Source: Bacillota bacterium (lineage in GTDB: Bacteria; Bacillota; Clostridia; Oscillospirales; CAG-272). From it: 41,146 bases of DNA. Every line of letters begins with the position of its first letter. Position 1 is the first letter of the stretch. The translations under genes and the position numbers were made by a program. A model generated the notes under the pieces. That model searched no databases. It was not told where the DNA came from and saw only the letters and a program-made list of their open reading frames with translations. This document shows positions 15,653-40,111 of the stretch, one piece after another. The DNA lies in the NCBI GenBank assembly GCA_029219205.1, contig JAQXSY010000029.1, positions 1 to 41,146 on the forward strand, written 5' to 3'.

Positions 15653-15735
15653 CGTATCACCTCCGCAATTAAAAACGGCAGAGCATATAACAAGACCATA
15701 CACCCGACTTCGAATCAATACCCATACGCGTTAAC

Positions 15736-15996
15736 CGAAGACGTCACTCGGAACAGGCAACCTCGCGGCGCATCAGACATTACTGCTTAATGCTGCTCGG
15801 TTCCCCGCCTGACATGGTTCACAGGCGCTGATCGCGCAAGACCCGCTCTTCAACGTGACATACGACGGCGCAGTACCGCACAGATACGACCCTCGGTTCG
15901 GGAAACCACCCCTGCTATAGCGGATTGCAGGTTACAGGACACCGCTGACTCCCCGGCCGGTATGGCCTTGTTATACGCCTTGCCGTTATTTGATTC
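15736..15996 (-). ncRNA. ffs: Signal recognition particle RNA, large bacterial type (with Alu domain)
   Basis: On the minus strand the 5' part carries the Alu-domain signature GGGGAGTCAGCGGTGTCCTG and CTGTAACCTGCAATCCGCTA (near 15918-15958). The apical helix 8 reads GTCAGGCGGGGAACCGAGCAGC, split here by its GGAA tetraloop at 15801-15804, closed by CGG/CCG; the symmetric loop (TGTCAGG against AGCAGCA) is the Ffh-binding site. GGCAA near the 5' end can pair with TTGCC near the 3' end. About 260 bases is the length of the B. subtilis-type RNA. The promoter at 16003-16031 sets the 5' end near 15996; the 3' end is approximate, and no clear terminator follows, so the transcript may run into dnaX. 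Confidence 0.93.
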
Positions 15997-16167: not shown

Positions 16168-16196
16168 TTGCAATATGTTTTTTTATGTTATATAAT
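16168..16196 (+). promoter_or_regulatory. Sigma-A promoter for the envelope gene cluster
   Basis: TTGCAA (16168-16173), 17 bases, then a perfect TATAAT (16191-16196). It leaves an untranslated leader of about 45 bases with AGGAG at 16232-16236. No other promoter of this quality was seen before 25728, so it may drive all eight genes. Confidence 0.85.
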
Positions 16197-16247: not shown

Positions 16248-18284
16248 ATGAGACATCAAAGTAAAACATTAACCGGATTTCAAATTTTGCTGATCATTGT
16301 CGGCGCGGTGCTTGCGGCACTGACCATTGCCATAGGAACTATTCACTATAACAAATATCTTTCGCCCGGCTGGCACGACGGCGGAACATATCATATGGAA
16401 AAGTTTTTAAAGCGCAGCACGGGACTTTGCAAAATCGGAGGAGAATACTATCTGTTTGACAATTCCGGGAAACTGCTATACGGTTGGAATTTCATCGGCA
16501 ATACCGGCTACTATTCCGACCGGGACGGGCTTATACTGCGCGGAGAACGCACTGTTGACGGAAAAACGTACAATTTTTCAGAGACCGACGGACACATAAC
16601 CGTAGGCATTGCGTATGAAAACGGCGTCGGACGCTGCTACGACGAATGCGGATACCCTGTTGCCGGCGGACTTGTCTCCGTTGACGGCAGCAATTACTAT
16701 TTTGACGAAAACGGCGAAATGCAAACCGGCATGATGATGCTCAACGGTTCGCTCTATTATTTCGGCGACGACGGAAAAGCCGCGTCAGGGTTTACATCAA
16801 TAGACGGAAAGACTTATTATTTCAGCGAATCCGAAGGAGCCGCAGTATGCGGAGCCGCAACAATCGAAGGCTCGCACTACCGTTTCGGAAGCGACGGAGT
16901 TATGGTAACCGGATGGTACGAGGAAGACGGAGCAAAATTCTACTATTACAGCGACGGAAAAGCCGCGTCAGGCGATACGGTTATCGACGGTACAAGCTAT
17001 AAATTCGCATCGAACGGAATGCTCGGATCGGGTTGGCTCGATCTTGACAGCGGAAGACTCTACATTTTACCGGACGGCGAATACGCCACAGGTAATGTCG
17101 AAATCGACGGAATTATTTATTCATTCGATGAGTCGGGACTTCTGATGACCGGCTGGAAAGATACCGAAAACGGGAAAAAGTACTACGGCAGCGACGGAAT
17201 CATGCGTTTGGGATGGGTTGATATTTCAGAAAACCGCCGTTATTACTTCGGCGACGACGGAATCCTCAGGACCGGAGTGTGCACGGTAGACGGAAACGAG
17301 CTTTATTTCGGCGACGACGGAGTTTTCACCTCCGGATGGATAAACGAAAACGACAATTCATATTATTATTACGAAAACGGAAAGATGGCAGCGGGACTGT
17401 GCGCCGTAGGCGAAAGCACATATTGTTTCGATTCATCGACCGGAGCGCTTTATAAGAGCGGCTGGTGCACGATAGACGGACTGCGCTGCTATGCGGACGC
17501 GGAGGGAAAAGCGCTCGACGGCGAGCAGACAATCAACGGTACAAAATATTATTTTACAAACCATGCTTTGATTGCCGAAGGCTGGGCAACAATTGACGGA
17601 GTACGCATGTATTTTGACAAAGACAGCAGGCCGCTGACCGGCGAACAGATAATCGACGGCGCAAAATACCGTTTCATGGAAGACGGACGTCTGCTTACCG
17701 GATGGTATACCGACGGCGAAAACAGGACATATTATCTCGGTGAAAACGGATATCCGCTTACCGGATGGCAGACAATATCAAAGAAACTCTATTACTTCAA
17801 GCTCGACGGCACAATGCTGACCGACACATATCTCGGTCTGTACTCAATAGGCAAAGACGGTGTCGCCGTATGGATTACTCCGACAAGGGAAAACTTCGAC
17901 TACTACATCTCAGAACTTGTAAAAGCCTACGCCTCGACTCCTGAAACTATCTTCCAATACATACGTTCAAACTATAAGTATAAGAAAACCGACAAGAGCG
18001 GCGACTCGATAGACGACGCGCTCCACATACTCAATTACCGAAAGGGCGCCTGCTACCATTTTGCTGCGCTGTCCTACCATATGCTCAAGGCTGCCGGATA
18101 CGAAACAATAATTATACACGGAGACGGACTGTACAATGCGCCGGAGCACTATTGGACCATGGTAAAAATTAACGGAAAATGGTATCATTACGACGCGCTC
18201 CAGAATCAGTATATGAAAACCGACAAGGAGCTCATTGCCGCCGGATACAACTGGAATTTCTCGGATTTTCCGTCAGCGGCATAA
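16248..18284 (+). CDS. Membrane-anchored cell-wall-binding-repeat protein with C-terminal transglutaminase-like domain
   Basis: The 678-residue protein has one N-terminal membrane segment (about residues 9-32) without a cleavage site, so most of it is outside the cell. Residues of about 45-540 are roughly twenty choline/glucan-binding type repeats (patterns such as YYFGDDGKAASG, KYYGSDGIMRLGW). The C-terminal 130 residues are a transglutaminase-like fold with a complete triad: Cys602 in RKGACYHFAALSYH, His634 in PEHYW and Asp649 in WYHYDAL. Such domains act as cysteine peptidases, crosslinkers or amidases; the substrate is not known, but a wall-peptide target is plausible. It heads the cluster. 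Confidence 0.88.
   Translation: MRHQSKTLTGFQILLIIVGAVLAALTIAIGTIHYNKYLSPGWHDGGTYHMEKFLKRSTGLCKIGGEYYLFDNSGKLLYGWNFIGNTGYYSDRDGLILRGERTVDGKTYNFSETDGHITVGIAYENGVGRCYDECGYPVAGGLVSVDGSNYYFDENGEMQTGMMMLNGSLYYFGDDGKAASGFTSIDGKTYYFSESEGAAVCGAATIEGSHYRFGSDGVMVTGWYEEDGAKFYYYSDGKAASGDTVIDGTSYKFASNGMLGSGWLDLDSGRLYILPDGEYATGNVEIDGIIYSFDESGLLMTGWKDTENGKKYYGSDGIMRLGWVDISENRRYYFGDDGILRTGVCTVDGNELYFGDDGVFTSGWINENDNSYYYYENGKMAAGLCAVGESTYCFDSSTGALYKSGWCTIDGLRCYADAEGKALDGEQTINGTKYYFTNHALIAEGWATIDGVRMYFDKDSRPLTGEQIIDGAKYRFMEDGRLLTGWYTDGENRTYYLGENGYPLTGWQTISKKLYYFKLDGTMLTDTYLGLYSIGKDGVAVWITPTRENFDYYISELVKAYASTPETIFQYIRSNYKYKKTDKSGDSIDDALHILNYRKGACYHFAALSYHMLKAAGYETIIIHGDGLYNAPEHYWTMVKINGKWYHYDALQNQYMKTDKELIAAGYNWNFSDFPSAA
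16761..17321 (+). repeat. Near-identical DNA repeats within the cell-wall-binding region
   Basis: TTCGGCGACGACGGA occurs at 16761-16775, 17247-17261 and 17307-17321, and a 21-base stretch is identical at 16769-16789 and 16952-16972. The protein repeats are thus partly identical at DNA level, consistent with recent duplication or recombination that can change repeat number. Confidence 0.8.
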
Positions 18285-18311
18285 AAGCAGCGTATAAACG
18301 GAGGGAATTTC

Positions 18312-18830
18312 ATGAAAGCGACCGCCAAAAGACTTTTCTCAGCAGTCATATTGATTTCAATGCTCTTTTCCTGCAGCTGTTCGTTCTGCGTCAAAGTGGC
18401 AAAACGTCTCGGACTGCCGCTCGATAATATAAATGAAAACTCTCTCGACGCAAGACTGGAGGATATTCTCAACAAAAACGGCAGAGATCTTGAAGATATT
18501 TACAATTTCGTACGTCAAAACATTACGTATAAGCGTATTGAAAAAGCGTCGGACGAAGAAATGGTCATATACGCTCTCAATTACAGAAGAGGCGCCTGCT
18601 ATCACTACGCGGCGCTCAGCCATTTTCTTCTCAAAGCCGCCGGATACGAGGTGCAAACCATCAAAGGCGCCGGACTCGACGTCAACGGCGACGGAATTCC
18701 CGACGCGGACGAGCACTACTGGAATCTGGTCATGGTCGACGGAAAATGGCTTCATTTTGACGCGCTTCAGGGACAGTTTTTAAAAAACGACGAGGAAATG
18801 AAAAAACTCGGTTATAACTGGGAGGACTGA
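18312..18830 (+). CDS. Transglutaminase-like lipoprotein
   Basis: The 172-residue protein begins with a lipoprotein-type signal; the lipid cysteine is probably Cys21 (ISMLFSCSCS), although Phe at -2 is unusual and Cys23 is an alternative. The rest matches the C-terminal domain of the preceding gene: Cys96 in RRGACYHYAALSH, His135 in DEHYW, Asp150 in LHFDAL, and a shared GYNW end. The pair looks like a tandem duplication in which one copy gained wall-binding repeats. GVDV-like DVNGDGIPDADEHY contains a calcium-loop-like Asp-rich turn not found in the first copy. GGAGGG precedes the ATG; the gap to the previous gene is 27 bases. Confidence 0.85.
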   Translation: MKATAKRLFSAVILISMLFSCSCSFCVKVAKRLGLPLDNINENSLDARLEDILNKNGRDLEDIYNFVRQNITYKRIEKASDEEMVIYALNYRRGACYHYAALSHFLLKAAGYEVQTIKGAGLDVNGDGIPDADEHYWNLVMVDGKWLHFDALQGQFLKNDEEMKKLGYNWED

Positions 18831-18836
18831 CCTGCC

Positions 18837-19130
18837 GTGAACCGTACAGCGGCTTATATTGCGCTTGCGTATTTTGCGGTAATCTCGATAGCCGCGGCGG
18901 CGGCGGTATGCTTTGATAAAACCGTCTCAAAGATTCCAGGGCATCGCCGCATTCCCGAAAAAACGCTGTTTATTCTTTCGTGCGCCGGAGGTTCAATCGC
19001 AATGCTGACCGCAATGCTTACAGTGCGGCACAAAACACGTCATAAGCGATTTATGATCGGTCTGCCCGTCATAATCGCGTTTCAGCTGACCGCTTTGTTT
19101 TGCATTCTCCGAATTTATAATTACATCTGA
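18837..19130 (+). CDS. DUF1294-family small membrane protein
   Basis: The 97-residue protein starts with GTG, with GGAGG eleven bases upstream inside the end of the previous gene. It has three hydrophobic segments. The DUF1294 pattern is clear: FDKTVSK, HRRIPEKTLFILSCAGGS and VRHKTRHKRF. The family is widespread and has no established function. It sits six bases after the lipoprotein and 14 before the MBOAT gene, so it should be co-transcribed with envelope genes. Confidence 0.87.
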   Translation: MNRTAAYIALAYFAVISIAAAAAVCFDKTVSKIPGHRRIPEKTLFILSCAGGSIAMLTAMLTVRHKTRHKRFMIGLPVIIAFQLTALFCILRIYNYI

Positions 19131-19144
19131 AACGGAAAATTGAT

Positions 19145-20536
19145 ATGGTATTTTCATCAACGGTTTTTTTATTCATCTTTTTACCGCTCGTATATCTGCT
19201 TAATCTGGTTATTCCGTCCGTGAAGGTAAAGAACATAATGCTGACGGCAGCGAGTCTGCTGTTCTACGCGTTCGGCGAACCGATCTATATTTTGCTGATG
19301 ATCTTTTCTATAACGCTCAATTACTTTCTCGGTCTTGCCGCCGGTTCGTCGGACAGAAAAAAAGCGAAAACCTCGCTTGTTTTTGCGATTGTAATAAATC
19401 TGCTCATGCTCGGCGTATTCAAATATGCCGGTTTTGCGGTTGAATCTTTCAACGCGCTGACGCGTCTTTCCGTTCCGGTTCCGCAGATCCGTCTGCCAAT
19501 CGGTATATCGTTCTTCACCTTTCAGGCTCTGTCCTACGTTATTGACGTCTATAAAGGAGACGCGCCACCTCAGAAAAGCTATCTCTGCGTTATGCTTTAT
19601 ATCTCCTTCTTCCCTCAGCTTATCGCAGGCCCCATACTCAAATACCACGACGTGGCCGCTCAGATTGAAAACCGGGTTATAACGCTTGACAAAACAGTAA
19701 TCGGCGTCCGCCGTTTCATCTGCGGGCTGGCCAAAAAGCTTTTAATCGCAAATACCGCCGGATTTATCACCGACACGCTTTTTGCCGCGGATCCCGGCAC
19801 GCTCGGAGCGGCGGCAGCCTGGCTCGGAGCCGTTTCCTACTGCCTTCAGATCTATTTCGATTTCTCGGGATATTCCGATATGGCAATCGGACTCGGACAC
19901 ATCTTCGGCTTTCAATTTCTTGAAAATTTCAACTATCCGTATGTATCCCAAAGCATACAGGAATTCTGGCGCCGCTGGCATATTTCCCTCTCGACATGGT
20001 TCAAGGAGTATCTTTACATTCCGCTCGGAGGCAACCGAAAGGGAAAGCTGCGCACCGGCTTAAACAAACTCATCGTATTCTTCTGTACCGGTCTGTGGCA
20101 CGGCGCAAGTCTGAATTTTATCGTATGGGGATTGTTCCACGGGCTTTTCATAATGCTTGAAAGCTACGGCGTTATACCGGTAGGCAAATGCCGTTTCCGT
20201 CCGCTTAGACATATTTATACATTGCTCGTCGTATGCGTAGGATTTGTAATTTTCCGCGCGGAAACAATGGAGCAAGCGCTCGTATACCTGCGTACTATGT
20301 TCACAGGCTTTTCGGGAGGCTCGGTTGCGCTTAATTCTTTCACTTCCCTGCTTTCGCCGTACAATTTGACGATTCTCGGCGCCGGTCTCGTACTCTCTGC
20401 CCCGGTCAAAAATTTGTTCAGAGACAACGCCGCAACAAGAGCCGTTTCTTACGCCGGCAGCTTGGTACTGCTCCTTATATGCATAATAACACTTTCCTCC
20501 ATGACTTATAATCCTTTTATTTATTTCCGGTTCTGA
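19145..20536 (+). CDS. MBOAT-family membrane O-acyltransferase (AlgI/DltB-like)
   Basis: The 463-residue protein has about ten membrane segments and the MBOAT signature: RYYF-type family blocks [44 protein letters not shown] and [24 protein letters not shown], then [18 protein letters not shown]. His319 and His332 are the conserved pair near the active centre. Members move acyl (usually acetyl) groups across the membrane onto exported glycans or teichoic acids. The DHHW gene right after it is the usual extracellular partner. No dlt genes are present, so acetylation of a secreted polysaccharide or wall glycan is more likely than D-alanylation. Confidence 0.94.
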   Translation: [463 protein letters not shown]

Positions 20537-20546
20537 GGACTAATTT

Positions 20547-21923
20547 ATGAATAAAAAACAGTTCAAGTCAATATACAAATTGATATACGTTATATTGTTT
20601 GTAGCGATATGCGCGCTGCCGGCACTTCTCATGCCGTTTGTCAAATCCGACGGCGGAGCCGAAAAACGCGAGCTTTCGGAATTTCCTTCCGTAATTAAAA
20701 AGGACGGCGGCTTAAACTTTGAATTCACTTCTCAGCTTGAGACTTATGTTTCCGAGCATTTTGCCTTCCGTTCCGGTCTGGTTTCGCTGAACAGTATGCT
20801 CAAATCCGGAATATTCAGGACGTCGTCAAACGAAAAAGTCATCGTCGGCAAAGACGGCTGGCTTTTCTTCAACGAAACACTCCCGGATTATACCGGAAAC
20901 GGCGCACCGGACGAAAATGCGCTTCGCCGAGTTGTCAAATCGTTGTCTCTCATGAATGAATATGCAGATGATTCCGGTATGAATTTCATTTTTGTTCCGG
21001 CACCGAATAAAAACACCGTTTACGGAGAATATATGCCCTCGAGGTATATAAAATCCGACTTTTCGGTTTTAGACACGCTTTTCGCTCTCATTGCCGAGGA
21101 CGGAAGTATAGCCTACGCAGATGTTCGCGGATTGTTTACGGAAAGTTCAGAGCTTCTTTACCACAAACGCGACACTCACTGGAACAACAAGGGCGCGCTG
21201 ACCGTCGTAAACTATGTGCTTGACATTCTTCAGAAAAGCCACAACGATTTTTCAAAAGCCTCTGCGAATATCGAGCGCACATGGGACGGCGATCTTGACA
21301 GTATGCTGTTTCCGTCGCTCGGATACAAGGACGATCAGGTTGTATACGACATTGATTATTCATACAGGTATTTAACCAAATACAAGGGCCCCGACGACAT
21401 AAGCATTAAGACCGCAAACGACAACGCAGAGGGTACGATGTACATGTTCCGTGACTCGTTCTGCAACTCGATGCTGCCGTTTCTGGCTGAAAATTTCGCG
21501 TCTGCGGAATTTACGCGCTCGGTTCCTTACCGTTTTGACAAAATCGAAGAAGGCACCGACGTCATAATATTTGAGATAGTTGAGCGTAATCTCACAAACA
21601 TCCTTCTCTACCCGCCGGTGCTTCCGGCGCCGGTACGCAATGTCCCGAATTTGTCGGAGGAAGATTTGCCCGAAGCAGAAGTCAAAGCCGAGCTGAAATT
21701 CGATATGCTCTGCATTTCTTCCGAATCGCTCTGCGAAGCAGACTCATACTACGTTATAATAAACGGGACGGCATATGAAGCATCGCCGTATAAAGACGAC
21801 GGCTTTATGATATACGTTTCCGGAATCGAAACTCTGCCGTCAGGCTCGACGGTTATGTGCATAAAAAGCAGCGGCTCCGAAAACGTAACCACAGAATACA
21901 GTTTAAAAATAATCGAAAATTAA
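20547..21923 (+). CDS. DHHW/AlgX-like SGNH-type protein, probable O-acetyltransfer partner
   Basis: The 458-residue protein has an N-terminal membrane anchor (about residues 9-28) and an extracellular AlgX/AlgJ-like domain. KDGWLFFNETLPDYTGNG is a family-typical block. The catalytic residues appear as Asp209 and His211 in RDTHWNNKGAL and Ser304 in MFRDSFCNSM, fitting an SGNH triad. Such proteins accept acetyl groups from an MBOAT partner and place them on glycans. GAGGA lies just before the ATG, 10 bases after the MBOAT stop. The last 110 residues form a beta-type module (VKAELKFDMLC onward), perhaps a glycan-binding part. Confidence 0.88.
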   Translation: MNKKQFKSIYKLIYVILFVAICALPALLMPFVKSDGGAEKRELSEFPSVIKKDGGLNFEFTSQLETYVSEHFAFRSGLVSLNSMLKSGIFRTSSNEKVIVGKDGWLFFNETLPDYTGNGAPDENALRRVVKSLSLMNEYADDSGMNFIFVPAPNKNTVYGEYMPSRYIKSDFSVLDTLFALIAEDGSIAYADVRGLFTESSELLYHKRDTHWNNKGALTVVNYVLDILQKSHNDFSKASANIERTWDGDLDSMLFPSLGYKDDQVVYDIDYSYRYLTKYKGPDDISIKTANDNAEGTMYMFRDSFCNSMLPFLAENFASAEFTRSVPYRFDKIEEGTDVIIFEIVERNLTNILLYPPVLPAPVRNVPNLSEEDLPEAEVKAELKFDMLCISSESLCEADSYYVIINGTAYEASPYKDDGFMIYVSGIETLPSGSTVMCIKSSGSENVTTEYSLKIIEN

Positions 21924-21935
21924 AGGAGAAAAAAC

Positions 21936-22493
21936 ATGAAAAAATTAATATTGGGTTCAACTGCGCTGCTTGCAGCCATAATACTTGCATCATGTTCAAA
22001 TCAGACTCAAACTGACGGAAAAGATTCAACCGAAAACGTCACTTCCGACCAGACTTCCTCAATACCTCAGACAACCCTTCCCGGTTTTTCTGCGTCCGAC
22101 TACCGCTTCAGCTACAACGGCACCGAGCTTATTCCCGGAATGAAAATGTCGGAGGTCAAAGATAAGCTCGGAGAAACCACAGACTACTCTGAAGCGCCCT
22201 CCTGTTACGCAGAAGGCAATGACAAGGTATTCGAATACAGCGGCGGACTTACCGTCTATACTTATCCTTCGGGCGAGGACGATATCATATCAATTATTGA
22301 GCTTTCGGATGATACTCTCTCCACTCCCAAAGGCGCGAAAACCGGAATGAGCTGGGACGAAATCACCGCGCTTTACGGCAGCGAATACACCGAGGAGGGA
22401 CTTACAAAGGTATACTATCTCGACGACGGCAGGTCTCTGTCATTCTCGGTTGAAAACGACAAGGTGGTACTTATAGAATACCTCAACAATTAA
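21936..22493 (+). CDS. Small lipoprotein of unknown function
   Basis: The 185-residue protein has a clear lipobox (IILASC, Cys20) followed by a Thr/Ser/Gln-rich linker of about 35 residues. The folded part appears to hold two similar halves: GMKMSEVKDKLGETTDY and GMSWDEITALYGSEY, each followed by strand-rich sequence (KVFEYSGGLTVYTY and KVYYLDDGRSLSFSV). This resembles BamE/SmpA-like small folds but no confident family can be named. A strong AAAGGAG site precedes the ATG, 12 bases after the DHHW gene. Confidence 0.8.
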   Translation: MKKLILGSTALLAAIILASCSNQTQTDGKDSTENVTSDQTSSIPQTTLPGFSASDYRFSYNGTELIPGMKMSEVKDKLGETTDYSEAPSCYAEGNDKVFEYSGGLTVYTYPSGEDDIISIIELSDDTLSTPKGAKTGMSWDEITALYGSEYTEEGLTKVYYLDDGRSLSFSVENDKVVLIEYLNN

Positions 22494-22568
22494 TTAAAGC
22501 AGCATTTTCCAGCAGTACGGCCGGTATTTTCCGCCGACCGGCAAAGAAAGGCATTGGTAAATAAATAA

Positions 22569-23642
22569 ATGAAATCGAACAGAATCAGGCTCGCCGCACT
22601 TTCTCTTTCGCTTGTTTTGTCGCTTTCTTCGTGCAGCATTGATATAGAACGTCTTGTTTTCGGCGAAAATGAAGGCGAGGTTACTCAGAATATCGAAACC
22701 CAGCCCGGCGAAATAACTCCCGACCCGCAAGACACCACTCCAAACAGAAACGATATTCTTGTCGTTGACGGAGACAAGACGATTCGTCTTACCGCAATGA
22801 CGGTTATTACGGAAACTATGCCGGTATACGCCGAGGGCAGCGTTGAATCCAAAACCGTACGGTCATATAAAAAAGGCACGACCGTAACCGTTGAGGTTAC
22901 CAACGATACAATGTGGCGCGTATACGACGGCAGCAATCACGTCGGATACTGCGAGATTGACAATGTTATATATGAGGATGCCGTATATTATGCGGAGCTT
23001 CCGGTCGAATACGGTACGTTTACGAACGGATACGACGCCACGTACAGCGCAAAATCTCATCTTGTCGACGTCCGCAAATACAACGATCTGCTTGAGACGC
23101 CGATGATAATCGACATGATCTGCCGCACCTACACACGCAAAGACGGCAAGCCGTTTTACAACAGAAATCTATGCCTGCTTCAGTATGACACATTAATGAA
23201 GCTTCTCAAAGCGCAGGCACAGTTCAACGCACACGGCTATACAATAAAAATATATGACGCCTACCGCCCCACAAGCGTTCAGTGGGCTTGGTATGAAATC
23301 GTAAATGTCCATAAATGGGTCGCCAACCCGAATCAGGGAAACGGCGGCGTTCATGACCGCGGAGTCGCGGTCGACATCTCGCTTGTCAATATCGAAACCG
23401 GTCAAGAGGTTGAGGTCCCGACGCCAATGCATACCTTCAGTGATCTTTCTGCAAGAAATTCTTCCGGAGAATGGAGCTACTGGGCAAAATACAATGTTGA
23501 GAATATACTGACCCCGATCATGGTTGAGTGCGGATTTGATATCATCAATTCGGAATGGTGGCATTTTCAGGATAAAAACCTGAACGACTATCTTCCGACT
23601 GACCATCCGATCGATGAGATTCCGCTTGTAATCGCTTATTGA
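22569..23642 (+). CDS. Lipoprotein with SH3-like domain and VanX-type D-Ala-D-Ala dipeptidase domain
   Basis: The 357-residue protein has a lipobox (LSLSSC, Cys18), a Pro/Thr-rich linker, a bacterial SH3-like region (about residues 70-140) and a C-terminal M15D peptidase. Zinc ligands and catalytic residues are all visible: His262 and Asp269 in GGVHDRGVAVDIS, Glu329 and His332 in SEWWHFQ, plus the YDAYRPTSVQ arginine block. VanX-type enzymes cut D-Ala-D-Ala. An exported, lipid-anchored form would act on peptidoglycan stems or released dipeptide, not inside the cell as VanX does in glycopeptide resistance. A 75-base gap precedes it. Confidence 0.92.
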   Translation: MKSNRIRLAALSLSLVLSLSSCSIDIERLVFGENEGEVTQNIETQPGEITPDPQDTTPNRNDILVVDGDKTIRLTAMTVITETMPVYAEGSVESKTVRSYKKGTTVTVEVTNDTMWRVYDGSNHVGYCEIDNVIYEDAVYYAELPVEYGTFTNGYDATYSAKSHLVDVRKYNDLLETPMIIDMICRTYTRKDGKPFYNRNLCLLQYDTLMKLLKAQAQFNAHGYTIKIYDAYRPTSVQWAWYEIVNVHKWVANPNQGNGGVHDRGVAVDISLVNIETGQEVEVPTPMHTFSDLSARNSSGEWSYWAKYNVENILTPIMVECGFDIINSEWWHFQDKNLNDYLPTDHPIDEIPLVIAY

Positions 23643-23676
23643 CATATGAAGATAGTAAAAAATCCGGAGGTGCGTA

Positions 23677-25728
23677 ATGGAAAACGGAAGATACCGTAAG
23701 GTCCGGGACATAACCTTGAATCTTGACTGTCCCGGCTGTCCCGTTAAGCCGAGACGCGCAACATTTTTATTTGACACTGCAAAAAATCTCCCGCTTCTTC
23801 AGGTGTTCCTCGAAAACACCGGCAGACGCGTAATAAAAGGAGTTTATCTAAAGCTTGTTTATTACGATAATTTCGGAAATGTCGTTCCCGACAACGGCAA
23901 AAGCTATAAAATCTGCGGCTTTCTGAATTTGGACTTTCACCCGGGCGCGACAGAAGGCGCTCATAAAGTTATTATTCTCCCGGGAGACGAAGTCGTTGAC
24001 TGCGACGTTTTTGTAACAAAGGTTATTTGTTCAAACAATGAAACTCTGCTGTTTAACGATTCCGATTATATACTTCCGTCGGAAATTAAGCCGAGGAAAA
24101 CCTCCTCAGGGTCGAAAAAGCGCAGCGGTAAGCTTGTGCTCGCCGGTCTTCTCGCCTCGGCGCTCCTTATATATATGTTGGTTGCGTTGGGAACTTATCT
24201 TTTCAAGGGCGCTTTTGTTTCCCCGGCAGACCGCTCAGCTATCAATAACCTTATTGAAACAAATAACTATGAAGACGCCATGAGCCGCGCGGAAAAAACG
24301 AAAAACTCTTCTCTTATAAGCGAAGTTGCGGAAAAAGCAGTCGATTATTATCTCGGTGAAAGCGACGCGGCTTCAGCTTCGCTATTTGTTTCAAAGCTTT
24401 CCGGAGACAAACGGAAAAGCGAGCTTGCCGCAAGTATAGCGGTAATGCTTAAAGAGGAAAAAGACTTTGTCTCGGCAAAAGAACTTGCCGAAAGCTGTGA
24501 AGAAGAAGAGCTCAAGGAAAAAATTATTTCCGAAGCTGTCGAATATTACTGCGGAAACTTCGACTACGACTCTGCGCTTGAGTTTGCGTCTGCATCCGAA
24601 GACGCTGAGCAGAAACGTCGGGTATACGACGAAGCCATCAAATACTTTGTAAGTCAGGAAAATTATTCCGAAGCGCTTGACTACGCAATAAAAACCGGCG
24701 ACGTGGACGCTCACGTTACGATATACGACGCCGCTATTCTTCAATACTATGAAAACGGAGACTATAACTCCGCGGCGCTTTACATCGCCAAAAGCGGAGA
24801 ATATGTCAGCGGGAAAATTACGTCATCGCTCATAGACCAGATCTTCGTTCTTGCGGATCCGGTTTATATAAGAACTCATCTCGATATTTTCTACGATTCC
24901 ATGTCGTTTGCACGCAAGCAGGCGCTTTTTGCATCGGTAATAGACGTATATAAAGAAGCGGTCGGCGTAACAAACAGCAAACGTGTCGCCGGAACGTCCG
25001 CGTTTACATTTACTAATATCTCTTCAATAGATACGAGCGAATTTCATACGGTCGGGCTGAAAAAGGACGGAACCGTTGTCGCTTCCGGAAACAACACATA
25101 TCGCCAGTGCGCAACGTCGGGATGGTCGAATATCGTTGCAATCGCAGCCGGAGAATGGCATACTGCTGCGGTGCGCAGCGACGGAACAGCGGTCGCAACC
25201 GGAAGCAACGAAAACCGTCAGTGCAACGTAACCGGCTGGCGCAAGCTTGTGGATATCGCCGCTGGCAGACGCCACACGGTTGGACTGAGAAGCGACGGCA
25301 CGGTCGTCGCTTGCGGCTCAAACGACTACGGTCAGTGCGACGTAAGCTCATGGACCGATATAATCGCCATTGCCTGCGGCGACACACATACAGTCGGACT
25401 GAAAAAGGACGGAACCGTCGTTGCAACCGGAAACGCGGCATTCGGAAGATGCAGCGTAAGCTCATGGACCGATATAGTCGCTATCTCCGCCGGTGACACG
25501 CATACCGTCGGGCTCCGTTCAAACGGAACGGTAGTTATGACGGGCCATCCGTACAGCGGCACATGCGGCGACGTATCGAGCTGGACAGACGTGGTCGCAA
25601 TCTCGGCAGGTTCTGTCTGCACAATGGGTTTGACCTCGTCCGGAACGATTCTGATAACCGGAGACGGCGCTCCAGATGTAAGCGGCATGCTGAATATCGC
25701 GGTGCCTGGCGCGGCATCCGATAACTGA
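23677..25728 (+). CDS. Membrane protein with helical-repeat region and C-terminal RCC1-type propeller
   Basis: The 683-residue protein starts with a cytoplasmic domain of about 150 residues of unknown type (a CPGCP pair, then beta-rich sequence), followed by a membrane segment (about 151-174). Residues 185-445 are helical, TPR-like pairs (for example NNYEDAMSRAEKT, NYSEALDYAIKTGD). Residues 448-683 are six repeats of about 39 residues of the bacterial RCC1 type (HTVGLKKDGTVVASG, SSWTDIVAISAG), likely a beta-propeller outside the cell. GGAGGT lies before the ATG. It ends the cluster. Function is unknown; a binding or scaffold role is inferred from the architecture. Confidence 0.85.
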   Translation: MENGRYRKVRDITLNLDCPGCPVKPRRATFLFDTAKNLPLLQVFLENTGRRVIKGVYLKLVYYDNFGNVVPDNGKSYKICGFLNLDFHPGATEGAHKVIILPGDEVVDCDVFVTKVICSNNETLLFNDSDYILPSEIKPRKTSSGSKKRSGKLVLAGLLASALLIYMLVALGTYLFKGAFVSPADRSAINNLIETNNYEDAMSRAEKTKNSSLISEVAEKAVDYYLGESDAASASLFVSKLSGDKRKSELAASIAVMLKEEKDFVSAKELAESCEEEELKEKIISEAVEYYCGNFDYDSALEFASASEDAEQKRRVYDEAIKYFVSQENYSEALDYAIKTGDVDAHVTIYDAAILQYYENGDYNSAALYIAKSGEYVSGKITSSLIDQIFVLADPVYIRTHLDIFYDSMSFARKQALFASVIDVYKEAVGVTNSKRVAGTSAFTFTNISSIDTSEFHTVGLKKDGTVVASGNNTYRQCATSGWSNIVAIAAGEWHTAAVRSDGTAVATGSNENRQCNVTGWRKLVDIAAGRRHTVGLRSDGTVVACGSNDYGQCDVSSWTDIIAIACGDTHTVGLKKDGTVVATGNAAFGRCSVSSWTDIVAISAGDTHTVGLRSNGTVVMTGHPYSGTCGDVSSWTDVVAISAGSVCTMGLTSSGTILITGDGAPDVSGMLNIAVPGAASDN

Positions 25729-25745: not shown

Positions 25746-25788
25746 AAAAATCGGCAAAAGCCAAAAAAGATGGCTTTTGCCGATTTTT
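25746..25788. terminator. Bidirectional terminator ending the envelope cluster and the valS unit
   Basis: AAAAATCGGCAAAAGCCA (25746-25763) pairs with TGGCTTTTGCCGATTTTT (25771-25788), an 18-base nearly perfect stem with A and T flanks on both sides. It serves the plus-strand cluster and the convergent ymdB unit, whose stop codon touches it. Confidence 0.93.
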
Positions 25789-38011: not shown

Positions 38012-40111
38012 TTATTCTGTTTTGTATCTGCCGATTTCATTAACCGGTATCGTTTCAAATTTAAACGGAATATCGATATCGTCTCTTATCTCGAAGGTGC
38101 CTTCTTTAAAAAGATCCTCCGGACGCTCATACTGATCAAGATTATTTTCAATAGTTGAATAATTGGGAATGGAATCCGACATGGGCATTTTTCCTCTGTT
38201 GGCGCCCATAAAAATGTTATTGCATATGATCGAACGTGCCGGGTTTGCCGGGAATCTTTCCGATTCGCACTCGGATTCGTCAAAAGTTGTATCAAAAGAT
38301 TTCGGATATCTTTCTTTCCACAGCTCACTTCTGAATGGGAATCTGCACATCTCATCGATCCAAGGCTGAATGCCCGCCTTACCCTTTTTATGGTATATAT
38401 CTCTGATGCGATCGTCATAGAAAACCGTATATTTGCAGTCTATAACAACATTATTTTCAATCGTTACATCTCTTCCGCCACCGATCAGAAAACCGTTTCC
38501 GGCTGCATTAATAATAATGTTTCCGTACGCAGTCTGACCGGACATGCCGTCGTCAAAATAGACTCCGGTTGCCGCAAAATCCTTTGAGATGCCTTCTTTC
38601 CCGATATTTTCAAATTTATTAAATTTAATCAGGTTTCCGTAGCAGGACCAACTGCCTCCGACATAGAGCGCGCCGGCATCGGCAGATTCGTAAACTGCAT
38701 CATGGACATAGTTGTATGCAACAAGTATGTCGTTTCCGTAATATGCAATTGCGGCGTGAGGACAGTCATAAATTTCGTTGTGAATTATTTTTGCGCCGAC
38801 TCCGCCGACCCATGCACCGTAATTATAGGTGCGGAATACATCTGCAAAATTGTGAATATTACAGTTTTCGATAGCGTTGCCGCACGGCGTCAAATTTTCA
38901 TAATCTCCCCTTGGACCATGCGTCAAACGAATTCCTCCTCTACCGACATAAGCAACCTCGCAGCCGTATGTACTGTTATACATGCCGTCGATTTCGATTC
39001 CGACTCCTTCAACGTTTCTGACAATACAGTTTCTTATATTTACATTATTTCCGCTGAGCTTTATGCCGTTTTCGCACACGCCCATAAGCGTTAAGCCTTC
39101 AAATACCGCATTTGATATCTCGCCGCTGATAAGCGAACCCTGAAATACAGATATTGAAACGCTGAAATCCGAAATGTTTTCGGGAACATAAACATAAAGA
39201 AGCATGTTTTCACGGTCGATATAGTACTCGCCTTCGCAGTCAAGCTCTTCAAGCACATTGAAAATGTAGAAATCTCTGTCGCTCTTTATTCCGTATGAGG
39301 ATGCGTGAGCAAGTTTTATCGTATTCTTTTCTGTGTCAACAGCCGCAATGGGGTTACTGTCCTCTGCCCAGTCGAAATTAAAATATCCGAATGCCCAAAC
39401 GTCCTTTACGGTCTTCCAAGACTTAATTTTGTCCGCCAAAGAAGATGTGATTGAGAATGTAGGTCCCTTTGGTCTGGGACTTTCCTCTCTGGTTTCTCCC
39501 GGATCCTCAATCGAACCTGTTTTAAGATATCCGGTATTCGGATATCTTGCAAGATTCAATCTGCTTCCGTTCAAATAAACGCCGCGATTCTTTCCGACGG
39601 TTCCGTCGTTATACTTTGACGCCAGCGATGCTACGCCTATTGCATATACCTCGCCTATCATTTCGCGAGTCAGTCCCTGTTTTAAAAGGTCACAAACAAA
39701 AATCCGATCCCTTGCATCCGGGTTCAGCCTTTCAAGAGTCTCTCTGTCGGGCTTCTTGAAATCCGCTCCTTTAATGATCTTTCCGCCGTTTAAAATGACT
39801 TCTCCGTCGCCAACCGCCTTATATGTCACAGGATACTCTTTTGTTCCGCTGTCCTTGTCCGTAAACACAATACCGGACATATTGTATTCACCGCCGTGCA
39901 GATAAACAGTAAGAGGTTTTGTAAGCCCCTTTTCGATCACCGCTCCGGCAGCCTCAACCGCTTTTTCAAGCGTTTTAAAGGGCTGCTCAGCCGTCCCCTC
40001 ATTTTTGTCGGAGCCGTTCGGAGATACGAAGAACTTCACTTCCTCATAAACCGGTCCAAAAGCATTTTCCGAAGCCAACTTCGCCGATGTCTGTTCTGTA
40101 ATCATAAACAT
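38012..40111 (-). CDS. Right-handed parallel beta-helix protein, glycosidase-like
   Basis: The 699-residue protein has no signal peptide. It starts with a DUF1565-like block (FFVSPNGSDKNEGTAEQPF and KTLEKAVEAAG), followed by TVYLHGGEYNMSG and RGVYLNGSRLNLARYPNTGY, then a long beta-helix of Asn/Ile-rich coils (VNIRNCIVRNVEGVGIEIDG, GNAIENCNIHNFADV). This layout resembles beta-helix glycoside hydrolases such as families GH120 and GH141 (the latter includes fucosidases), which fits the neighbouring GH29 gene, but the family is not proven. AAGG precedes the ATG. The next ATG two codons in is an alternative. Confidence 0.8.
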   Translation of the reverse strand: MFMITEQTSAKLASENAFGPVYEEVKFFVSPNGSDKNEGTAEQPFKTLEKAVEAAGAVIEKGLTKPLTVYLHGGEYNMSGIVFTDKDSGTKEYPVTYKAVGDGEVILNGGKIIKGADFKKPDRETLERLNPDARDRIFVCDLLKQGLTREMIGEVYAIGVASLASKYNDGTVGKNRGVYLNGSRLNLARYPNTGYLKTGSIEDPGETREESPRPKGPTFSITSSLADKIKSWKTVKDVWAFGYFNFDWAEDSNPIAAVDTEKNTIKLAHASSYGIKSDRDFYIFNVLEELDCEGEYYIDRENMLLYVYVPENISDFSVSISVFQGSLISGEISNAVFEGLTLMGVCENGIKLSGNNVNIRNCIVRNVEGVGIEIDGMYNSTYGCEVAYVGRGGIRLTHGPRGDYENLTPCGNAIENCNIHNFADVFRTYNYGAWVGGVGAKIIHNEIYDCPHAAIAYYGNDILVAYNYVHDAVYESADAGALYVGGSWSCYGNLIKFNKFENIGKEGISKDFAATGVYFDDGMSGQTAYGNIIINAAGNGFLIGGGRDVTIENNVVIDCKYTVFYDDRIRDIYHKKGKAGIQPWIDEMCRFPFRSELWKERYPKSFDTTFDESECESERFPANPARSIICNNIFMGANRGKMPMSDSIPNYSTIENNLDQYERPEDLFKEGTFEIRDDIDIPFKFETIPVNEIGRYKTE

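Follow-up and report, generated by a model that had tools for sequence, protein, structure and literature searches.

Two transglutaminase-like genes in a probable polymer-acylation operon of an Oscillospirales bacterium

Two adjacent genes in the draft genome of a Bacillota bacterium (Clostridia; Oscillospirales; CAG-272; assembly GCA_029219205.1) encode transglutaminase-like (TG) proteins that share a catalytic domain and differ in how they are held at the cell surface, raising the question of which process they serve. We analysed the 41,146-nucleotide stretch of contig JAQXSY010000029.1 that carries them (the window) and refer to the genes as TG1 and TG2. An earlier note, made from the letters of the window, had read the pair as a duplication followed by divergent anchoring. 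That reading covers only one corner of the picture: the two domains are part of a conserved MBOAT/SGNH acylation operon whose TG gene has undergone several duplications, and the note overlooked that the pair forms the first two of eight genes in the window's copy. We estimate a probability of about 55% that TG1 and TG2 are paralogous, surface-anchored accessory enzymes with a Cys-His-Asp triad that belong to an extracytoplasmic polymer-acylation operon.

Linkage of the pair to acylation genes

TG1 and TG2 open a run of eight plus-strand genes (16248-25728; Table 1) with intergenic gaps of 27 (between TG1 and TG2), 6, 14, 10, 12, 75 and 34 base pairs. The run holds, as does the PatA1/PatB1 system, both an MBOAT gene and a gene for an SGNH protein of the DHHW/AlgX type (DHHW), each with its catalytic blocks; neither a ligase nor a carrier, the counterparts of DltA and DltC, was found in it, and a genuine Dlt operon was rejected for the window. 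We consider it very likely that the TG pair is part of an acylation operon. Its membership is visible in the synteny described below, while the chemistry of the TG proteins (transfer, cross-linking or hydrolysis) is what we infer.

We searched 395 genomes from this bacterium's family for relatives of the TG1 domain. The places listed yielded 107 loci outside the own genome (two listed places share one locus), which were annotated with profiles built in this analysis. The most constant neighbour within 8 kb of TG was a gene for a small lipoprotein (LIPO; 54/107 loci), followed by MBOAT (38), DHHW (28), an M15 peptidase (24), a protein with an RCC1 propeller (23) and SGNH/GDSL (21), and in every one of these cases the neighbour was on the same strand as TG. 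An AMP-ligase-like gene was present at this distance in 29 loci, 26 of them with the same orientation. In 61 of the 107 loci, TG was accompanied by one or more of the six non-ligase families. Seen from the side of the partners, all 48 MBOAT, 61 LIPO, 33 DHHW and 24 SGNH genes on the TG-bearing stretches are located no more than 8 kb from a same-strand TG gene, and the roughly 155 kb of these stretches that lie beyond 8 kb contain, from these four families and M15, only one of the 26 M15 genes.

TG was found together with MBOAT and/or LIPO in 20 genera, mostly of one family. In a class-wide draw, LIPO was present in 26 of 196 genomes, and at least 17 of these 26 (judged by eye), from nine families including the own one, had a same-strand TG match within 8 kb. 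An initial test of linkage, made on 59 diverse genomes, had been weak, with 8 pairs in 7 genomes versus 1.9 expected; the case for linkage rests on the larger sets above. A wider count included 123 TG genes, 73 of them with MBOAT, LIPO, DHHW or M15 nearby, and its opposite-strand neighbours were one MBOAT, one LIPO and one DHHW gene, which the map assigns to the second TG of locus L069; since this count contains loci picked for their nearness to MBOAT as well as the near-identical pair L065/L066, we regard the 107-locus count as the fair one. Taken together, TG is recurrently linked in many genera of related, gut-type bacteria, on the same strand, to MBOAT, an SGNH transferase (DHHW/GDSL) and LIPO.

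The partner genes occur in two layouts. Layout I reads MBOAT-DHHW-M15-RCC1-TG-LIPO (e.g. L072, L088, L104, L110, L119, L155 and L184); it is rearranged in the window and partly so in L067-L071, five genomes of genus g94 with repeat-bearing TG. Layout II is composed of TG, an AMP-forming ligase, a carrier of about 75 amino acids (aa), MBOAT, SGNH and LIPO, and no M15 gene was found in it. Its ligase is related to amino-acid adenylation enzymes and DltA, with scores (299 and 253 bits) that stay under the curated cut-offs, and a DGILDS-type carrier was detected in 14 of 19 layout II loci with a looser pattern (0 of 19 with a stricter one), making an amino acid the likely cargo. MBOAT, an SGNH-type protein, TG and LIPO are the common denominator of both layouts, and layout II connects TG and LIPO with the handling of acyl groups irrespective of where these come from.

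The ligase and carrier of layout II also bear on an alternative in which TG1 and TG2 are true cross-linkers: amino-acyl esters that the cassette places on the polymer would provide a primary amine, the acyl donor would be an amidated peptide of the wall or a Gln residue of a surface protein, and the polymer would be tied covalently to the wall or to proteins. A likely amino-acid cargo favours this idea, and the fold and triad described below are compatible with it. However, the window's own layout lacks the ligase and carrier (3 of 30 layout I rows matched the carrier pattern, none of them carrier-like and probably through out-of-frame reading), and AsnB, which could amidate wall peptides, is present in only 4 loci and was therefore rejected as a constant source of the amide donor; two further AsnB-like matches, in L193 and L194, are PurF-like. 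We consider cross-linking unlikely.

The two proteins, their fold and their origin

The two open reading frames that the earlier note had called transglutaminase-like both exceed the Pfam cut-off of 23 bits for Transglut_core (PF01841), with 50 bits for TG1 and 52.7 bits for TG2. All sequence blocks it quoted (GACYH, EHYW, WYHYDAL or WLHFDAL, and GYNW) are present, and the Cys/His/Asp triad is intact in both proteins, with C602 of TG1 and C96 of TG2 as the catalytic Cys. In an alignment of 112 of 123 related domains, from which domains shorter than 100 aa and own-genome paralogues were left out, the Cys is kept in 110/112 and the His and Asp each in 112/112. The anchors are also as the note had described them. 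TG1 starts with a hydrophobic anchor (residues ~12-34) without a lipobox and continues into a repeat arm that we divide by eye into about 23 units, each ~20 aa long (the note had put them at about twenty), and TG2 is a predicted lipoprotein in which C21 fits what we take to be the PROSITE lipobox pattern.

The repeat arm of TG1 matches Choline_bind_3 (194 bits) and Choline_bind_1 (79.5 bits) in Pfam and the glucan-binding repeat TIGR04035 (glucan_65_rpt) in NCBIfam (181.6 bits versus a cut-off of 147.7). All 11 matches to choline-type repeats in the own genome, a draft of 191 contigs and 2.3 Mb that is 95.6% complete, fall within the TG1 gene, and LicD, the only choline route searched, gave no match in this draft. 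With a single repeat protein and no LicD found, choline is unsupported as the ligand; the arm more probably binds a glucan or the polymer of the operon itself. Elsewhere in the class, at L206 (9337-10410), the order is reversed, with the transglutaminase-like domain first and choline-type repeats at the C-terminus, and no MBOAT was seen nearby.

The Asp-rich loop that had been pointed out in TG2 (D123-x-N-x-D-G-x-x-D-x-x-E134) fits an EF-hand-like calcium loop. Because it adjoins the catalytic His, TG2 may be calcium-switched, a doubtful proposal drawn from this one sequence. The loop occurs in TG2 only, that is in 1 of the 112 related domains, and was rejected as a family trait; in the AlphaFold model of TG2, its residues 123-131 have a predicted local distance difference test (pLDDT) score below 50.

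That model, built from an alignment of the window and L065/L066 sequences only (mean pLDDT 77.8; predicted template modelling score 0.72), predicts a transglutaminase/arylamine N-acetyltransferase (NAT)-type fold, as the note had expected. The best solved match among those listed (VIA-align) is TglA of S. pyogenes (9crn; Z 14.7, 2.3 Å over 126 aa, 21% identity), which is also the best profile match among the matches listed; we found no paper on TglA in the literature searched, coverage of which was partial. Further matches are the protease LapG (Z 11.1), a dynein-regulatory-complex chain of the sperm axoneme (Z 10.5), the acyl-transfer enzymes GdmF amide synthase (Z 10.4) and NAT (Z 10.2), the pseudomurein isopeptidases PeiW (Z 10.0) and PeiP (Z 9.8), and human transglutaminases (Z ~9).

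Regarding the origin of the pair, the TG1 and TG2 domains share 42% identity over 128 aa with an E-value of 1e-40, while the next-best match of the TG1 domain within the own genome, which has 7 PF01841 matches, reaches only 5e-5; the similarity is therefore far above both chance and the family background. The domains do not fall into distant clades, the outcome that the earlier note had named as speaking against it. They belong to one clade with repeat-fused homologues (9 rows; support 100/100 in a 22-row tree) and are the nearest rows to each other in both the 22-row and a 73-row tree. The 73-row tree left out L066 and domains with an E-value above 1e-23 or shorter than 110 aa, and places own-genome paralogues on long branches with unsure positions; the 22-row tree omitted L077 and kept few rows from beyond the repeat-fused clade. 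Duplication is thus the likely origin judging from the sequences, and the differing anchors agree with the divergence that had been proposed. Exclusive sisterhood of TG1 and TG2 was not established: as a constraint on the 22-row tree it costs 1.5 log-likelihood units (p-value of the approximately unbiased test, p-AU, 0.22), so that the duplication may predate the split from the repeat-fused relatives. Since TG2, which has no repeats, sits among repeat-fused proteins, the simplest reading is that it lost the repeat arm.

Tandem copies are also found elsewhere. L065 and L066, from metagenome-assembled genomes of uncultured Clostridia, carry a tandem pair in the corresponding position; each of its copies has repeats, and the two are sisters to each other (90/86 in the 22-row tree), suggesting a separate duplication. 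Further tandem TG copies occur in L111 (2), L193 (6), L194 (5), L195 (3), L196 (3) and L208 (2). In L193 (3609-15402) and L194 (4563-14853) the five to six tandem TG genes are interleaved with SGNH and LIPO genes, and no MBOAT was detected in these arrays at the local threshold.

Weighing the proposed role

In many bacteria, MBOAT/SGNH pairs decorate surface polymers (alginate, peptidoglycan, secondary wall polysaccharide, teichoic acids), and the later use of the decorated polymer is often unclear. The operon described here probably serves a similar end, acylating a polymer of the cell surface. In the scheme that we propose, MBOAT would accept an acyl group from a donor in the cytosol and hand it outwards, and the DHHW protein would attach it to a glycopolymer of the wall or envelope, following the example of PatA1/PatB1. 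TG1 and TG2 would then act through a Cys acyl-enzyme, either on the polymer so acylated or where it joins the wall, and most likely they would transfer acyl groups to form or exchange amide links. TG1 would reach into the wall by its repeat arm, probably gripping a glucan or the operon's polymer, and TG2 would act at the membrane, maybe switched by calcium. The retention of TG in layout II, together with a ligase and a carrier and without a peptidase, makes us lean slightly to acyl transfer, with hydrolysis close behind; a choice of acyl transfer or cross-linking over hydrolysis for the two enzymes is tentative, and we give it less than even odds.

Several observations weigh against this role. 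At the level of chemistry, the operon includes an M15 peptidase, suggestive of peptide cutting, and LapG and PeiW fit the modelled fold of TG2 as well as the transferases do, so that the fold leaves transferase, cross-linker and hydrolase undecided; a shared fold does not fix the chemistry. At the level of linkage, 46 of the 107 loci have none of the six partners within 8 kb, the genera are non-independent samples, and the first linkage test becomes modest once the own genome is removed (6 pairs versus 1.69 expected, Poisson p 0.008). In 26 of the 46 partnerless loci the contig or stretch breaks off within 8 kb; the other 20 have complete flanks, which indicates that the TG domain also occurs outside such operons.

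Hydrolysis is a credible possibility, one to which we give less than even odds. The pair would then consist of hydrolases of the wall or of surface proteins (endopeptidase, isopeptidase or amidase) that, together with M15, trim peptidoglycan stem peptides or clip a surface protein, making room for the acylated polymer or releasing it. Many bacterial transglutaminase-like proteins are thought to be proteases, PeiP joins LapG and PeiW among the hydrolytic matches, and the M15 genes found beside TG in the 107 loci are without exception co-oriented with it. On the other hand, layout II retains TG and LIPO without M15, which argues against peptide trimming as the common denominator.

In a further alternative, the pair would be nothing more than tandem copies of a general transglutaminase-like protein of the surface, with acylation genes as neighbours by chance or through a loose clustering of envelope genes. 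PF01841 is indeed common (matched in 50 of 59 relatives), and the partnerless homologues are numerous. Yet the six partner families keep the strand of TG in every case, and the association recurs in 20 genera and across the class and survives the reordering of the genes, making this explanation very improbable.

Returning to a role in polymer acylation, an enzyme class with a nucleophilic Cys that recurs beside MBOAT/SGNH provides a defined additional step that can be tested, and the operon offers a functional context for the many surface transglutaminase-like proteins that so far lack one. The same-strand linkage seen in 20 genera, along with the matches in other families of the class, makes a bench test worthwhile. 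A more general idea, which we judge unlikely in its full extent, is that of a widespread Clostridia-like machine for surface acylation, with TG and LIPO as constant partners of MBOAT/SGNH, that would convert an acylated envelope polymer (amino-acylated in the ligase form) into one that is amide-linked and covalently attached; lineages would tune it by multiplying TG (two here, up to six elsewhere) and by changing its anchor, and one copy would have become calcium-switched.

Remaining features and known systems

The features of the run are collected in Table 1.

Table 1. Features of the eight-gene run and its flanks, in window coordinates.
Feature	Position	Strand	Details
Possible promoter TTGCAA-17-TATAAT upstream of TG1	16168..16196	+	pattern only
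TG1, 678 aa	16248..18284	+	anchor aa ~12-34, repeats aa ~60-540, transglutaminase-like domain aa ~545-670
GACYH block of TG1 (aa 600-604)	18045..18059	+	catalytic Cys = aa 602
TG2, 172-aa predicted lipoprotein	18312..18830	+	almost only transglutaminase-like domain
EF-hand-like loop DVNGDGIPDADE of TG2 (aa 123-134)	18678..18713	+	abuts catalytic His135
DUF1294 small membrane protein, GTG start	18837..19130	+	PF06961, 62.5 bits
MBOAT O-acyltransferase (DltB/AlgI/PatA type)	19145..20536	+	PF03062, 118.7 bits; FWRRWH and WHG motifs
AlgX/DHHW-type SGNH O-acyltransferase	20547..21923	+	PF16822, 54.7 bits; PF14286, 28.7 bits; DTHW and RDSF blocks
LIPO small lipoprotein, CAP-associated-N/DUF4309-like fold	21936..22493	+	
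M15 (VanX/DdpX-like) D,D-peptidase, predicted lipoprotein	22569..23642	+	metal and catalytic motifs present
Membrane protein, one transmembrane helix and C-terminal RCC1 propeller	23677..25728	+	
Bidirectional terminator-like hairpin, closes operon	25746..25788	.	18 pairs

Promoter-like sites are found in the window at chance level (14 versus 13.9 expected). LIPO matched no Pfam family above cut-off; its model (pLDDT 71) resembles the extra domain of an SCP/CAP-domain protein and DUF4309 (4ifa, Z 11.9; 4h0a, Z 11.2; YjgB, 4ygt, Z 9.9), a fold which we take to be the CAP-associated N-terminal domain. More distant fold relatives of LIPO include beta-lactamase inhibitor proteins (Z 6.5). In the RCC1 protein, which is kept in layout I operons, the propeller stands behind the transmembrane helix and the N-terminal part is cytosolic. 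Outside the run, the window contains a lysine riboswitch (Rfam RF00168; 9729-9908) upstream of dapA/dapB genes, a large bacterial signal recognition particle RNA on the minus strand (15696-15965) that lies directly upstream of a dnaX-like gene on the same strand, and a gene for a 699-aa right-handed beta-helix protein (38012-40111, minus strand), possibly located at the surface.

Among systems with related parts, TglA has the closest solved fold to TG2 in the matches listed. TG1 resembles choline- and glucan-binding surface proteins in its repeat arm, which scores above the Pfam and NCBIfam cut-offs, and differs from them in being the sole such protein of its genome, in the lack of a detectable LicD and in its transglutaminase-like catalytic part. 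Compared with Dlt D-alanylation (DltA ligase, DltC carrier, DltB MBOAT and DltD), layout II likewise has ligase, carrier, MBOAT and SGNH in one run, but its ligase scores 253 bits versus a DltA cut-off of 559.85 and its MBOAT 161 versus 375, and it has TG and LIPO in addition; it is thus only Dlt-like, and the window's run has neither ligase nor carrier.

According to the available text of the respective sources, the clostridial cellulose locus carries an MBOAT/DHHW pair, ccsH/ccsI, described as cellulose acetylation genes (PMC7710045), and PatA1/PatB1 of Bacillus cereus (MBOAT and DHHW) acetylate secondary wall polysaccharide (PMC9487903). The window shares with the former an MBOAT/DHHW pair in Clostridia and differs in having no cellulose synthase among its annotated genes. 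With the latter it shares an MBOAT gene directly followed by a gene for a DHHW/AlgX-type SGNH protein, whereas the published pair is described together with S-layer genes in the available part of that review (PMC9487903) and the recurrent companions here are TG, LIPO, M15 and RCC1. The word transglutaminase has 0 occurrences in the available text of either source, and in the literature searched, with partial coverage and few subscription journals or preprints, we found no paper joining transglutaminase-like proteins with MBOAT, DHHW or Dlt genes. The MBOAT/SGNH acylation operon is therefore of a known kind in itself, and its transglutaminase-like partners are an apparently undescribed addition.

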